NCBI GenBank assembly: GCA_019115445.1
Contig: DXDP01000469.1
Span: 1 to 33,895, forward strand
DNA length: 33,895 bases
From: Candidatus Nocardiopsis merdipullorum
GTDB taxonomy: Bacteria > Actinomycetota > Actinomycetes > Streptosporangiales > Streptosporangiaceae
Direction of reading: 5' to 3'
The notes under the pieces were generated by a model. That model was not told the origin of the DNA and did no database searches. It saw only the letters and a list, made by a program, of their open reading frames with translations. The number at the start of each line of letters is the position of its first letter. Within the stretch, counting starts at the first letter, position 1. Below are positions 29,747 to 33,895 of this stretch, piece by piece. A program made the translations under genes and the position numbers.

Positions 29747-31099
29747 CTATTTCCCGGCCCCGCGCAGCAGATGCACGGCATCACCGGAGGTGACCACCGA
29801 ACCGGTGATCAACACCCCCACACCGCCGAACTCTCCGTCTTCTTCGGCCAGGCCCACGGCCCGGTCGATGGCGTCGTCGAGTCGCGGTGCCGCGTGAACG
29901 CGGTCCTCACCGAAGATCTCCTGTGCCAGGTGGGTCAGCCGCGCGGGTTCCAATGAGCGCGGCGACGAGTTGCGGGTGACGACGATCTCGTCGAGCAATG
30001 GTTCGAGGGGCTCCAAAATCCCCTCCACGTCCTTGTCGGCCATGATCGCGACCACACCCACCAGTTTGGTGAAGGAGAAAGCCTCCCCCACGGCGGCGGC
30101 CGTGGCGATCATCCCGGCCGGGTTGTGTGCGGCGTCGGCGATGATGGTCGGGCTGGTCCGCACGACCTCCATGCGACCGGGCGCCTCGATGCCGGTCAGA
30201 GCTTCCCCCACGAGCTCCGGGGCCAGGGCCGGACCGCCCTCGGAACCGGCGGAGAAAGCTTCCACCGCCGCAACTGCGACAGCGGCGTTGCTCGCCTGGT
30301 GCTCACCGAACAGAGGCAGGAAGATGCCCTCGTAACCGGCGGTCAGCCCCTTGAGGTGGACCTGTTGACCACCGACCGCGATCTCCCGGAAGGTGACCCC
30401 GAATTCCAGGCCTTCCCGGGCCACGGTCGCCCCGATCTCGGCGGCCTGTTCCAGGAGCACCTCGGCCACCGGTACCTGCTGTTGGGCGAGTACCGCCACG
30501 GAGCCGGGCTTGATGACACCTGCCTTCTCCTCGGCGATGCCCCCCGGAGTGTCCGGAAGGTATTCGGTGTGGTCGATGGAGATGGGGGTGATCACCGCCA
30601 CGTCGGCGTCGACGACGTTGGTGGCGTCCCAGCGCCCACCCATACCGACCTCGACCACGGCCACGTCGACAGGTGTGTCGGCAAAGGCTGCATAAGCCAT
30701 CACGGTGAGGATCTCGAAGAACGACAAAGGTGTGTCGTTGATCTCGTCCGCCATGTCGATGAAGGGGCGGATGTCGTCGTGGACCTCGACGAACCTCTCC
30801 TCGGAGATCGGTTCACCGTCCACGACGATGCGTTCGCGTACGGTGCGCAGGTGCGGGCTGGTGTAGCGGCCCACCCGCAGGCCACGGGCGCGTACGAGCG
30901 CGTCGATCATGCGGGCGGTGGACGTCTTGCCGTTGGTGCCTGCCACGTGGATGACCCGGAAGGTGCGCTGCGGGTCACCCAGCAGGTCCAGCACCGTGCG
31001 TACCCGCTCCAAGGTCGGATCGATCTCGGACTCGGGAGCGCGGGACAGGATCTGCGCGCTCACCTCGGCGTAGCGCTCACCGGCGCCGGAGGTGCTCAA
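29747..31099 (-). CDS. folC: Folylpolyglutamate / dihydrofolate synthase
   Basis: A 450-aa Mur-ligase-type enzyme adding glutamate to folates (and to dihydropteroate in bifunctional forms). The P-loop GTNGKTST is at 54-61, then YTSPHLRTVRERI, the FFE motif (SFFEILTVMAY), EVGMGGRWDATN, the Mg-binding His in ISIDHTEYL, EEKAG with the carbamylated-type Lys, and DAAHNPAGM in the C-terminal domain. The assigned start is a TTG with weak ribosome-binding context; conserved sequence begins at RYAEV, so the exact start is uncertain. It is followed by DUF4233. The gene upstream is a divergent paralogue of the same fold. Confidence 0.95.
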   Translation of the reverse strand: MSTSGAGERYAEVSAQILSRAPESEIDPTLERVRTVLDLLGDPQRTFRVIHVAGTNGKTSTARMIDALVRARGLRVGRYTSPHLRTVRERIVVDGEPISEERFVEVHDDIRPFIDMADEINDTPLSFFEILTVMAYAAFADTPVDVAVVEVGMGGRWDATNVVDADVAVITPISIDHTEYLPDTPGGIAEEKAGVIKPGSVAVLAQQQVPVAEVLLEQAAEIGATVAREGLEFGVTFREIAVGGQQVHLKGLTAGYEGIFLPLFGEHQASNAAVAVAAVEAFSAGSEGGPALAPELVGEALTGIEAPGRMEVVRTSPTIIADAAHNPAGMIATAAAVGEAFSFTKLVGVVAIMADKDVEGILEPLEPLLDEIVVTRNSSPRSLEPARLTHLAQEIFGEDRVHAAPRLDDAIDRAVGLAEEDGEFGGVGVLITGSVVTSGDAVHLLRGAGK

Positions 31100-31173
31100 A
31101 GCTTTTCGAAGGTCTGGATGTACACGCGCGCCAGTGTACGCGCCTTCACGTGGACAACCGGTCCGGGTGAAGG

Positions 31174-31209
31174 ATTCGGGGACGCCCGTACGCGGACCAT
31201 ACTGGTCCC
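31174..31209 (+). promoter_or_regulatory. Leaderless promoter and overlapping palindrome of the FolC paralogue
   Basis: CATACT (31198-31203) ends seven bases before the ATG at 31210, as expected for a leaderless transcript; a weak TTCGGG lies 17 bases upstream of it. The -10 sits inside a perfect GGACCA-TAC-TGGTCC inverted repeat (31194-31208), which looks like an operator. No Shine-Dalgarno site is present. Confidence 0.45.
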
Positions 31210-32460
31210 ATGCCGAACCTTGACCCCTTTTTCACCGAATGGGCCACCCGGGCCCCGGGGCAGAGCCGCTCCCTGTCCCGGGCCGCCATGCTCCTACGTG
31301 CACTGGATCTGGAGCGGGAGCGTGTCCCGGTGCTCGGGGTCGTGGGGTCCAAGGGCAAGGGCACCACGGCCACCTTCGCGGCGGCGACGCTGGCGGCAGC
31401 CGGACTGCGTACCGTCCTGGTGACGGGGCCGAGCTTTCGGTCCTACCGCGAGCGGGTCCGCGTGGACGGCATGTCCGTGACCGACACCGAACTCCACTTC
31501 CTGGGGGAGGCGCTCGAAACCGCCCGTCGTACACTGCCCACGGTCGAGGAGTCCGGCGGCTACCTGGCACCGAGCGGCCTCTTCCTGATCGCGGGCCTGC
31601 TGCACGCCCGTTCCATCGGCGCCAACGTGTGCGTTCTGGAAGCAGGCATGGGTGGCCACCGCGACGAACTGCGTCTTGTCGGACCCGAGGCGGTCGCCCT
31701 GGGGCCGGTCTTCGGCGAACATCTTGGGGTGCTGGGAAAGACCGTGCCCGAGATCGCCCGGGAGAAGACCCTCGTGGCCGGGAAGCGCACTCGGGCTCTG
31801 GTGAGCCTGCCGCAGAAGGCGCAGGTCACACCGGTGGTGGCCCAGACCTTGGCCGAAGCCACAGGTGGTCGGGTGTCGCCGGAGATCGTCGACCCGGATG
31901 TGGAGGGGACAGAACCTCCGGTGTGGTTGCGCCCGGCGGGGCTGTCGGCCGCCTCGGGCGTGTTGGGTACGGCCGCCGCGAACCGGATGTCGAGAACACT
32001 GGGGCAGCCACGACCCGCACCGGAACGTCTGCGTTCGGTGTTGACCGGCGTGCGCCTGCCCGCCCGGCTGTCCCGGCATCACGTGCCCGGTACTTCGACC
32101 GAGGTCGTGGTGGACTCGGCCATCGACCGCGTGGGCATCACCGCGGCCCTCACACACGTCCGTGATCTTTGGCCCGGTGTGGACCATGTACTGCTGTGCC
32201 TGCCCGACCACAAGGACGTGTCCGGCGCCGTGGCGGCCCTGGAAGGGATCCCGGTGACCATGGTGCGCCTGCCCGAAACACACCTGCGCTTCGCGTACGG
32301 TCTCCCCGGACATTGGGGACACACCGACGTGGACGACCTCTCCCCCGCCTCCGTCACCGCATTGGGCGAGCGTGTACTGGCCCTGGGCACCGTGTACTTC
32401 ACCGGCAGGATGCTGGAGCTCCTCGACGCCCCCACGGACAGGTTGTTCGACCCGAGCTGA
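31210..32460 (+). CDS. FolC-like Mur ligase paralogue, function unknown
   Basis: A 416-aa protein aligning with FolC along its length. Kept: the P-loop GSKGKGTT (46-53), RERVRVDG, EAGMGG (144-149), the His171 and Lys186 equivalents (GEHLGVLGKTVPEIAREK). Changed: SPH is GPS, the FFE motif is absent, WDATN becomes HRDELR, and DAAHNP is DSAIDR (302-307). Nucleotide and metal machinery thus seems intact while folate- and glutamate-side motifs are not, suggesting ATP-dependent amide ligation on another substrate. It is divergent from folC (110 bp) and convergent with clpX (34 bp). A degenerate paralogue is the alternative, but the frame is full-length and codon use is normal. Confidence 0.8.
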   Translation: MPNLDPFFTEWATRAPGQSRSLSRAAMLLRALDLERERVPVLGVVGSKGKGTTATFAAATLAAAGLRTVLVTGPSFRSYRERVRVDGMSVTDTELHFLGEALETARRTLPTVEESGGYLAPSGLFLIAGLLHARSIGANVCVLEAGMGGHRDELRLVGPEAVALGPVFGEHLGVLGKTVPEIAREKTLVAGKRTRALVSLPQKAQVTPVVAQTLAEATGGRVSPEIVDPDVEGTEPPVWLRPAGLSAASGVLGTAAANRMSRTLGQPRPAPERLRSVLTGVRLPARLSRHHVPGTSTEVVVDSAIDRVGITAALTHVRDLWPGVDHVLLCLPDHKDVSGAVAALEGIPVTMVRLPETHLRFAYGLPGHWGHTDVDDLSPASVTALGERVLALGTVYFTGRMLELLDAPTDRLFDPS

Positions 32461-32494: not shown

Positions 32495-33775
32495 CTAGGC
32501 GGACTTCTCCTGGCTTTCGTCCCCGCCGGGCTGGGTGCGCGGCACGATCGTCGGATTGACGTGTTCCTCGACCGACTCACGGGTGATGATGACCTGACCG
32601 ACGTCCTCCCGGCTGGGCACCTCGTACATCACCGAGAGCAGGACCTCCTCGATGATTGCCCGCAGACCACGAGCACCGGTCCCCCGGATGATGCCCTGTT
32701 CGGCGATCGCCTCCAGAGCGTCCTCGGTGAACTCCAACTCGACGTTGTCCAGGTCGAACAGCCGCTGGTACTGCTTGACCAGGGCGTTCTTCGGTTCCGT
32801 CAAGATACGGATGAGCGCGGCGTTGTCCAGGTTGTGCACACTGGTGATCACCGGCAGACGTCCGATGAACTCCGGGATCATCCCGAACTTCAACAGGTCC
32901 TCGGGCATCGCCTCGCCGAAGACCTCGCTGCTGTCGACCTCGGACTTGGGCCGCAGGACCGCGTTGAACCCCATGCCCTGCTGCCCGGCACGGGCCTCGA
33001 TGATCTTCTCCAGACCCGCAAAGGCACCACCGCAGATGAACAGCACGTTCGTGGTGTCGATCTGGATGAACTCCTGGTGGGGGTGCTTACGCCCGCCCTG
33101 TGGCGGCACGCTCGCCGTGGTGCCCTCCAAGATCTTCAACAGCGCCTGCTGAACGCCCTCACCGGACACGTCCCGGGTGATCGACGGGTTCTCGCTCTTA
33201 CGTGCGACCTTGTCGACCTCGTCGATGTAGATGATTCCGGTCTCGGCCTTCTTGACGTCGTAGTCGGCGGCCTGGATCAGCTTCAGCAGAATGTTCTCGA
33301 CGTCCTCACCCACGTAACCCGCCTCGGTCAGCACGGTGGCGTCGGCGATCGCGAACGGAACGTTCAGGATCTTGGCAAGGGTCTGGGCCAACAGGGTCTT
33401 GCCCGAGCCGGTGGGGCCCAGGAGCAAGATGTTGGACTTGGCGATCTCCACTTCCTCGTCGCCAGGACGCTGCTCACTGTCGGAACGGACCCGCTTGTAG
33501 TGGTTGTAGACCGCTACGGACAGGGCCTTCTTCGCCCGGTCCTGACCGATGACGTAGGAGTCCAGGAACTCGTAGATCTCCCTGGGCTTGGGAAGTGAGT
33601 CCCAGGTGAGCTCTGTGGCGTCCGCGAGTTCTTCTTCGATGATCTCGTTGCACAGGTCGATGCACTCATCGCAAATGTACACGCCGGGGCCGGCGATGAG
33701 CTTCTTCACCTGTTTCTGGCTCTTGCCGCAGAATGAGCACTTCAGCAGGTCCCCGCCGTCACCGATGCGTGCCAC
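32495..33775 (-). CDS. clpX: ATP-dependent Clp protease ATP-binding subunit ClpX
   Basis: A 426-aa AAA+ unfoldase that feeds substrates to ClpP. The zinc-binding domain has Cys13, Cys16, Cys35 and Cys38 (CSFC...CDEC). The AAA module shows Walker A GPTGSGKT near 118-125, the GYVG pore loop, Walker [10 protein letters not shown] near 183, the RKH loop ([10 protein letters not shown]) and sensor residues in [11 protein letters not shown]. The start is the GTG at 33775, where GAGGAG lies at ideal distance; the track's 35-residue extension is not supported. clpP usually lies upstream and would be beyond the window edge. Confidence 0.97.
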
Positions 33776-33809
33776 CCAGCCACTCCTCAAAACTAAGGCC
33801 ACCCCGCCC

Positions 33810-33828
33810 CCGACGCGTGTCGCGTCGG
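33810..33828. promoter_or_regulatory. Palindrome upstream of clpX, ClgR-like core
   Basis: CCGACGCG-TGT-CGCGTCGG, perfect 8-bp arms, 35 bp upstream of the clpX start. Its centre reads CGC-GTGTC-GCG, the CGC-N5-GCG spacing I recall for ClgR, the actinobacterial activator of clp genes. It could instead be a short hairpin in a clpP-clpX transcript. Confidence 0.4.
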
Positions 33829-33895
33829 ACGGCACGGAAGCGAACTCCCGTGAATCTTCCGTCCACGACCGACCGGTCACGAACGGGGCGATCTG

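Follow-up and report, generated by a model that had tools for sequence, protein, structure and literature searches.

The window analysed here, a stretch of 33,895 nucleotides from Candidatus Nocardiopsis merdipullorum, contains an open reading frame whose product (P0001) an earlier note, made from the letters alone, had described as a FolC-fold ligase paralogue next to folC (Table 1). BLASTP against the neighbouring FolC gave 27% identity (E 6e-14) and a profile–profile alignment of paralogue and FolC covered 381 columns (E 8.5e-39), which bears out this relationship. The position between folC and clpX was likewise confirmed by the coordinates and the Pfam domains of ClpX. The starts of folC and the paralogue gene are 110 bp apart. 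The folC product reached 641 bits with NF047860 and 336 bits with TIGR01499; downstream of folC follow DUF4233, ndk, mreB, mreC, mreD, a PBP2-type transpeptidase gene and rodA, mreC being assigned from position and sequence only. The genome itself, which is 85% complete, contains the paralogue, one FolC and one weak Mur-type match below the cut-off. A PADLOC search for defence genes gave no match for the paralogue.

Table 1. Features of the paralogue locus (positions in the window; residue numbers of the paralogue; residue counts among 64 paralogues).
Feature	Position	Strand	Basis or remark
folC, complete and ordinary	29747-31099	-	divergent neighbour of the paralogue
Intergenic region	31100-31209
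Near-repeat ATGTACAC	31118-31125		conserved; GTGTACAC in most Nocardiopsis
Near-repeat GTGTACGC	31134-31141		conserved
CATACT hexamer, ends 6 nt before ATG	31198-31203	+	intergenic DNA alignment; conserved across 20 aligned loci of Nocardiopsis type
FolC-fold ligase paralogue, 416 aa, ATG start	31210-32460	+	ORF call, profile search, model
P-loop G46-S-K-G-K-G-T52; Ser47, Lys48, Gly51 clade-typical	31345-31365	+	64/64 for G46, S47, K48, G49, K50, G51
G73-P74-S75, counterpart of FolC SPH Mg2+-ligand loop, Ser to Gly	31426-31434	+	Gly 43, Ser 21
A120-P-S-G123 in place of FolC S-F-F-E (folate pocket)	31567-31578	+	profile alignment, motif comparison
EAGMGG, Glu144 = FolC metal ligand	31639-31656	+	E 64/64
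D152-E-L-R in place of FolC D-A-T-N, Asp retained	31663-31674	+	motif comparison
E170-H171, metal-site His	31717-31722	+	H 64/64
Lys186, carbamyl-type Lys position	31765-31767	+	K 63/64
L-P-A-R286-L-S-R, Arg of FolC PGR motif	32059-32079	+	R 64/64
D302-S-A-I in place of FolC D-A-A-H	32113-32124	+	motif comparison
P332-D-H-K-D336, counterpart of FolC DKD	32203-32217	+	motif comparison
G393-T394, counterpart of FolC C-terminal GS motif	32386-32391	+	profile alignment, motif comparison
clpX	32495-33880	-	convergent neighbour; Pfam zf-C4_ClpX and AAA_2

The conserved position of the CATACT hexamer supports the annotated ATG start, and the hexamer would fit the -10 box of a leaderless mRNA. Of the two conserved near-repeats in the intergenic region, GTGTACGC overlaps a minus-strand TACACT, which is likely the -10 box of folC; together the two repeats might form an operator.

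No current family model describes the paralogue clade. With TIGR01499, the FolC model, the paralogue scored 99.4 bits and thus falls below the curated cut-off of 162.65; paralogues from the genomes checked reached 92–132 bits, and the best E-value among 23 clade members was 2.6e-42. Pfam Mur_ligase_M gave 16.5 bits (gathering score 24) and Mur_ligase_C no match, while at E < 0.01 the two domains were found in 20 and four of the 23 members, respectively. Every curated family cut-off exceeds the score of the paralogue. An AlphaFold model computed with 23 orthologues (pLDDT 94.4, pTM 0.93) had as its 17 top PDB matches exclusively FolC/FPGS structures (TM 0.68–0.80), the best being 1jbv, L. casei FPGS with AMPPCP, at 0.80. 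Model, PDB comparison and profile alignment show the two-domain FolC fold over the full length of the paralogue. This fold is common to the FolC proteins of L. casei (1jbv), M. tuberculosis (2vor) and E. coli (1w78), and shared with them are also the P-loop, the metal Glu and His, the Lys, the PGR Arg, the C-domain Asp, the DKD Lys and the terminal G[S/T]. The paralogue differs from FolC in its score below the family cut-off, in the replacement of folate-pocket residues and of the DxxHN His, in forming a separate clade and in not replacing FolC. The Mur ligases (MurC-F, Mpl) and the pseudomurein peptide ligases are alike in the fold of the ATPase and C-terminal domains and, by homology, in acyl-phosphate chemistry, but the 416 residues of the paralogue include no UDP-binding N-domain, and these enzymes lie well behind FolC/FPGS in the comparison with the model (TM 0.40–0.57). 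CapB/PgsB, CphA, MurT and CfbE are precedents for the use of the Mur fold on other acids and amines; in lengths and motifs we take them to be unlike the paralogue. A profile search gave no PgsB or CfbE match for the paralogue and only a marginal hit to a CphA-type P-loop (NF010623, 13.3 of 877 bits).

For a detailed comparison of motifs, 64 paralogues were set against 45 FolCs. The catalytic positions are retained in at least 62 of the 64 paralogues. Kept across the clade are P-loop G46, G49 and K50, E144, G146, G148, G149, H171, K186, P284, R286, D302, K335, D336 and G393; the catalytic P-loop Lys, Glu, His, Lys, Arg and Asp of the Mur superfamily are all present. The P-loop, the Glu of EAGMGG, the metal-site His and the carbamylated-type Lys, which the earlier note had listed as kept, are therefore indeed conserved (see also Table 1). 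Around them the motifs have been rewritten. The P-loop reads GSKGKG throughout the clade, where FolC has GTNGK[T/G/S]; [S/T]xFE of FolC is changed to [A/S]P[S/A/T]G, DATN to DE[L/V]x, DxxHNP to DSA[I/V]xR and the terminal GS to GT. Residues F128, E129, H325 and N326 of the FolC encoded in the window are found in 45 of 45 FolCs, and the paralogues have S/A/T/N, G, I/V and D/N/S at these positions. In M. tuberculosis (Mtb) numbering, F152, E153, the ATN of DATN and the DxxHN His show little or no variation among the FolCs and are uniformly replaced in the paralogues, which thus possess neither the dihydropteroate-pocket signature ([S/T]xFE, DATN) nor the DxxHN motif of the C-terminal domain. The claim that SPH, FFE, WDATN and DAAHNP are all lost holds for FFE, ATN and the His of both SPH and DAAHNP, which are gone in all 64 sequences. 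It is slightly too strong for the Asp of DATN and the Asp of DAAHNP, which are kept, and for the Ser of SPH, retained in 21 paralogues; Gly takes its place in the other 43, which belong to Nocardiopsis and close genera and include the paralogue described here. Since Ser is present in all six rare lineages outside the main carrier family, it was lost later, within the Nocardiopsis group. The Asn of Mur/FolC enzymes (N271 of the FolC in the window) is Ser in this paralogue and Asn in 18 of the 64. The equivalent of Mtb R49 is R24; this position and the DATN Asp are invariant or nearly so in the clade.

In Mtb FolC, S98 binds Mg2+, S150 forms a hydrogen bond to a dihydropteroate analogue, and E153 contacts this analogue and pairs with R49, according to a modelling study (PMC9637297); the substitutions S98G, S150G and E153A occur in PAS-resistant isolates (PMC9637297). 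The paralogue has Gly, Ala and Gly at these three positions. Among the residues of the FolC pterin site are a conserved Asp and several hydrophobic ones, Phe being one of them (reviewed in PMC4790348). F125 of the paralogue was considered as an equivalent of the FolC Phe and dropped, as the profile alignment pairs it with a helix Leu.

Phylogenetic analysis placed 28 paralogues in a single clade apart from all 45 FolCs (support 100/100), and thus outside ordinary FolC; a position inside it would have overturned the earlier note's interpretation. In a second tree, to which a Mur outgroup and the FolCs of E. coli, L. casei, T. maritima and M. tuberculosis were added, the paralogue clade emerges within the wider FolC radiation, far from the actinomycete FolCs, and is therefore FolC-derived; the closest FolCs belong to other classes of the phylum (support 91/82, on long branches). 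Both trees rule out a recent duplication of the adjacent folC. Branching within the clade, ((f3, f36), (f17, f1)), resembles the species order, with one long sequence (L135) shifting between the two trees; families f3, f36 and f17 are probably Micrococcaceae-, Microbacteriaceae- and Frankiaceae-type, respectively. In our reading the gene is old, was inherited vertically and has been lost many times; transfer between ancestors is a less likely alternative.

The distribution is patchy. Within the order, the paralogue was found in 109 of 250 genomes; all 109 belong to one family (f1), and 21 of 57 genera are represented among them. It is present in essentially every sampled Nocardiopsis genome, and more than half of the genomes of f1 are without it. 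Beyond this family, carriers amount to one of 35 genomes in f17, three of 151 in f3 and two of 200 in f36. Among 397 genomes across the phylum no further match rose above the FolC background of 132 bits, whole clade members scoring at least 223; outside the class the clade profile yielded FolC-level scores only (up to 132 bits), and plasmid records gave weak FolC matches only. A full FolC above the cut-off was found in all 14 genomes checked, paralogue carriers included. In the literature searched, which did not extend to subscription papers, a FolC paralogue of this kind is not described.

The paralogue is under purifying selection. Ten pairs gave omega values (NG86) of 0.21–0.31 for the paralogue and 0.09–0.25 for FolC, the absolute values being rough because of GC-rich codons. 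Frame damage, the second circumstance that could have overturned the earlier note, is rare: frameshifts occur in L059, a Nocardiopsis eucommiae record, and in L167 (genome G049), and an interruption in L106 (G618). The two frameshifts are either sequencing errors or recent losses. Apparent stops in L166/L169 and L168 are the normal ends of intact genes, and nearly all remaining copies are intact. Mostly open frames together with the omega values rule out a pseudogene. Some copies have insertions that separate the paralogue's two halves close to or at the junction of the domains, as extra in-frame residues in L046, L047, L051, L055 and L170 and as the larger interruption of L106.

A survey of neighbours across relatives identified folC as the only recurring one. 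The paralogue adjoins folC divergently at 27 of 30 whole-genome loci, as it does at all 28 named Nocardiopsis-type loci; the exceptions are three genomes of genus g31, in which folC lies elsewhere (confirmed in G030 and G108). At the g31 loci L102–L105 the paralogue is found near genes for a TetR regulator, an MFS transporter, a SIS-domain protein and a methyltransferase. The two genes are also separated in four of the six rare carriers outside f1: the paralogue lies between dapF and hflX in L100 and L134 and far from folC in L099 and L133. In the other two it follows ileS-folC-DUF4233 directly with a gap of 17 bp (L135) or precedes ileS-folC-ndk (L101). Some neighbours at these loci were read by eye. 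As the two main branches both have the gene linked to folC, this is probably its ancestral position there. All other flanks are lineage-specific (MFS/TetR, SIS, methyltransferase, sugar ABC, FGase, luciferase-like and HAD-like genes, ABC and HAD assigned by eye), and the conserved neighbours across loci offered no functional clue. Locus L057 (NYMS01000062.1), labelled Glycomyces fuscus, is of the Nocardiopsis type, and its name seems wrong or outdated.

The earlier note's remark that valS stands at this place in Streptomyces proved correct for the Streptomyces-like genome G167, in which valS is located directly upstream of folC. Bacterial-type valS adjoins folC in G167 and in the Actinomadura-like G132, whereas G000, G089, G018 and G030 have only a lower-scoring ValS type, encoded elsewhere, and lack a bacterial-type ValS that passes the TIGR00422 cut-off. 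In the Nocardiopsis lineage valS thus vanished from the folC gap and the paralogue stayed. As Actinomadura-like relatives carry both types, one ValS type was lost.

Our preferred explanation, to which we give a probability of about 0.66, is that the paralogue is an active ATP-dependent carboxylate-amine ligase of FolC fold with a predicted acceptor other than dihydropteroate. It would be a stand-alone, cytoplasmic, two-domain enzyme whose P-loop, E144, H171 and K186 bind ATP and Mg2+ as in FolC. A carboxylate would be converted to an acyl phosphate using ATP, and an amino acid positioned by the C-terminal domain (K335/D336, T394) would accept the acyl group on its amine. FolC chemistry runs via an acyl-phosphate intermediate (PMC4790348); catalysis, this mechanism and an amino acid as the amine are taken over by analogy. 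Because K335/D336 and G393/T394 are kept, an amino acid, possibly glutamate or a glutamate-like one, is the likeliest amine. The acid in the interdomain pocket is unlikely to be dihydropteroate, since the paralogue has neither the FE pair nor ATN nor the DxxHN His and has gained the charged residues K48 and E153. The earlier note had proposed a Mur/FolC-type ligase acting on something other than folate and glutamate. Intact ATP/Mg2+ residues, a rebuilt folate pocket and the position outside FolC in the tree support the first part, and a folate-related acceptor is disfavoured as well, though not more than that, given how little the DATN Asp and the counterpart of Mtb R49 vary. An exclusion of glutamate is not supported, given that the DKD Lys and the terminal G[S/T] are kept.

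The retained DATN Asp and Mtb-R49 Arg speak for a dedicated folate enzyme, for instance a monofunctional FPGS or tail-length enzyme beside a FolC that performs the first glutamylation, as do the adjacency to folC in most loci and the arrangement in the rare carriers L135 and L101. Eukaryotic monofunctional FPGS has a P-loop Lys too (TKGKGS) and is not known to have the FE pair. We nevertheless regard this explanation as unlikely: the whole clade has other residues in place of ATN, FE and the DxxHN His, the paralogue is missing from over half of the genomes in the family, folC is unlinked in g31 and in most rare carriers, and FolC shows no sign of having surrendered a function. Less probable still is a FolC-like protein without catalytic activity, serving to regulate or bind either FolC or a small molecule. 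The paralogue evolves faster than FolC, and the loss of the Mg2+ Ser, the Asn and the DxxHN His together in the Nocardiopsis lineage could leave weak or no ligase activity. However, essentially all 64 sequences, deep branches included, retain the P-loop Lys and Gly, Glu144, His171, Lys186, Arg286 and Asp302, the model shows the whole two-domain FolC architecture, and the paralogue persists where folC is elsewhere.

That the carriers are antibiotic-rich actinomycetes, and that Mur/FolC-fold ligases serve many non-murein products, might point to a tailoring ligase of a natural-product pathway. We consider this very improbable, as the flanks are housekeeping genes that differ by lineage (clpX, ndk and mre genes; miaA-dapF-hflX in two carriers), conserved biosynthetic neighbours were looked for across loci and no cluster was seen at those examined, and essentially every Nocardiopsis genome sampled carries the gene. 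A decaying folC duplicate, for which the damaged copies L059, L167 and L106 could be cited, has hardly any probability left: the trees do not pair the paralogue with the adjacent folC, and frames are open in most carriers with omega as given above.

The paralogue clade is thus an old, conserved, FolC-derived ligase subfamily without a name, whose function can be predicted in its chemistry only. We see an even chance that it represents an undescribed amide-bond-forming family of Actinomycetes, which would predate the split of Streptosporangiales- and Micrococcales-type lineages, have been mostly lost since, and carry out an unrecognised polyglutamylation or aminoacylation of a metabolite or cofactor. 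FolC has a deep sister, probably an enzyme, concealed under FolC-like annotation, and the name folylpolyglutamate synthase should not be transferred to second FolC copies in actinomycetes. Intact ATP chemistry combined with a rebuilt acid pocket may mark an unrecognised aminoacylation step that is near-universal in sampled Nocardiopsis and common in its relatives.
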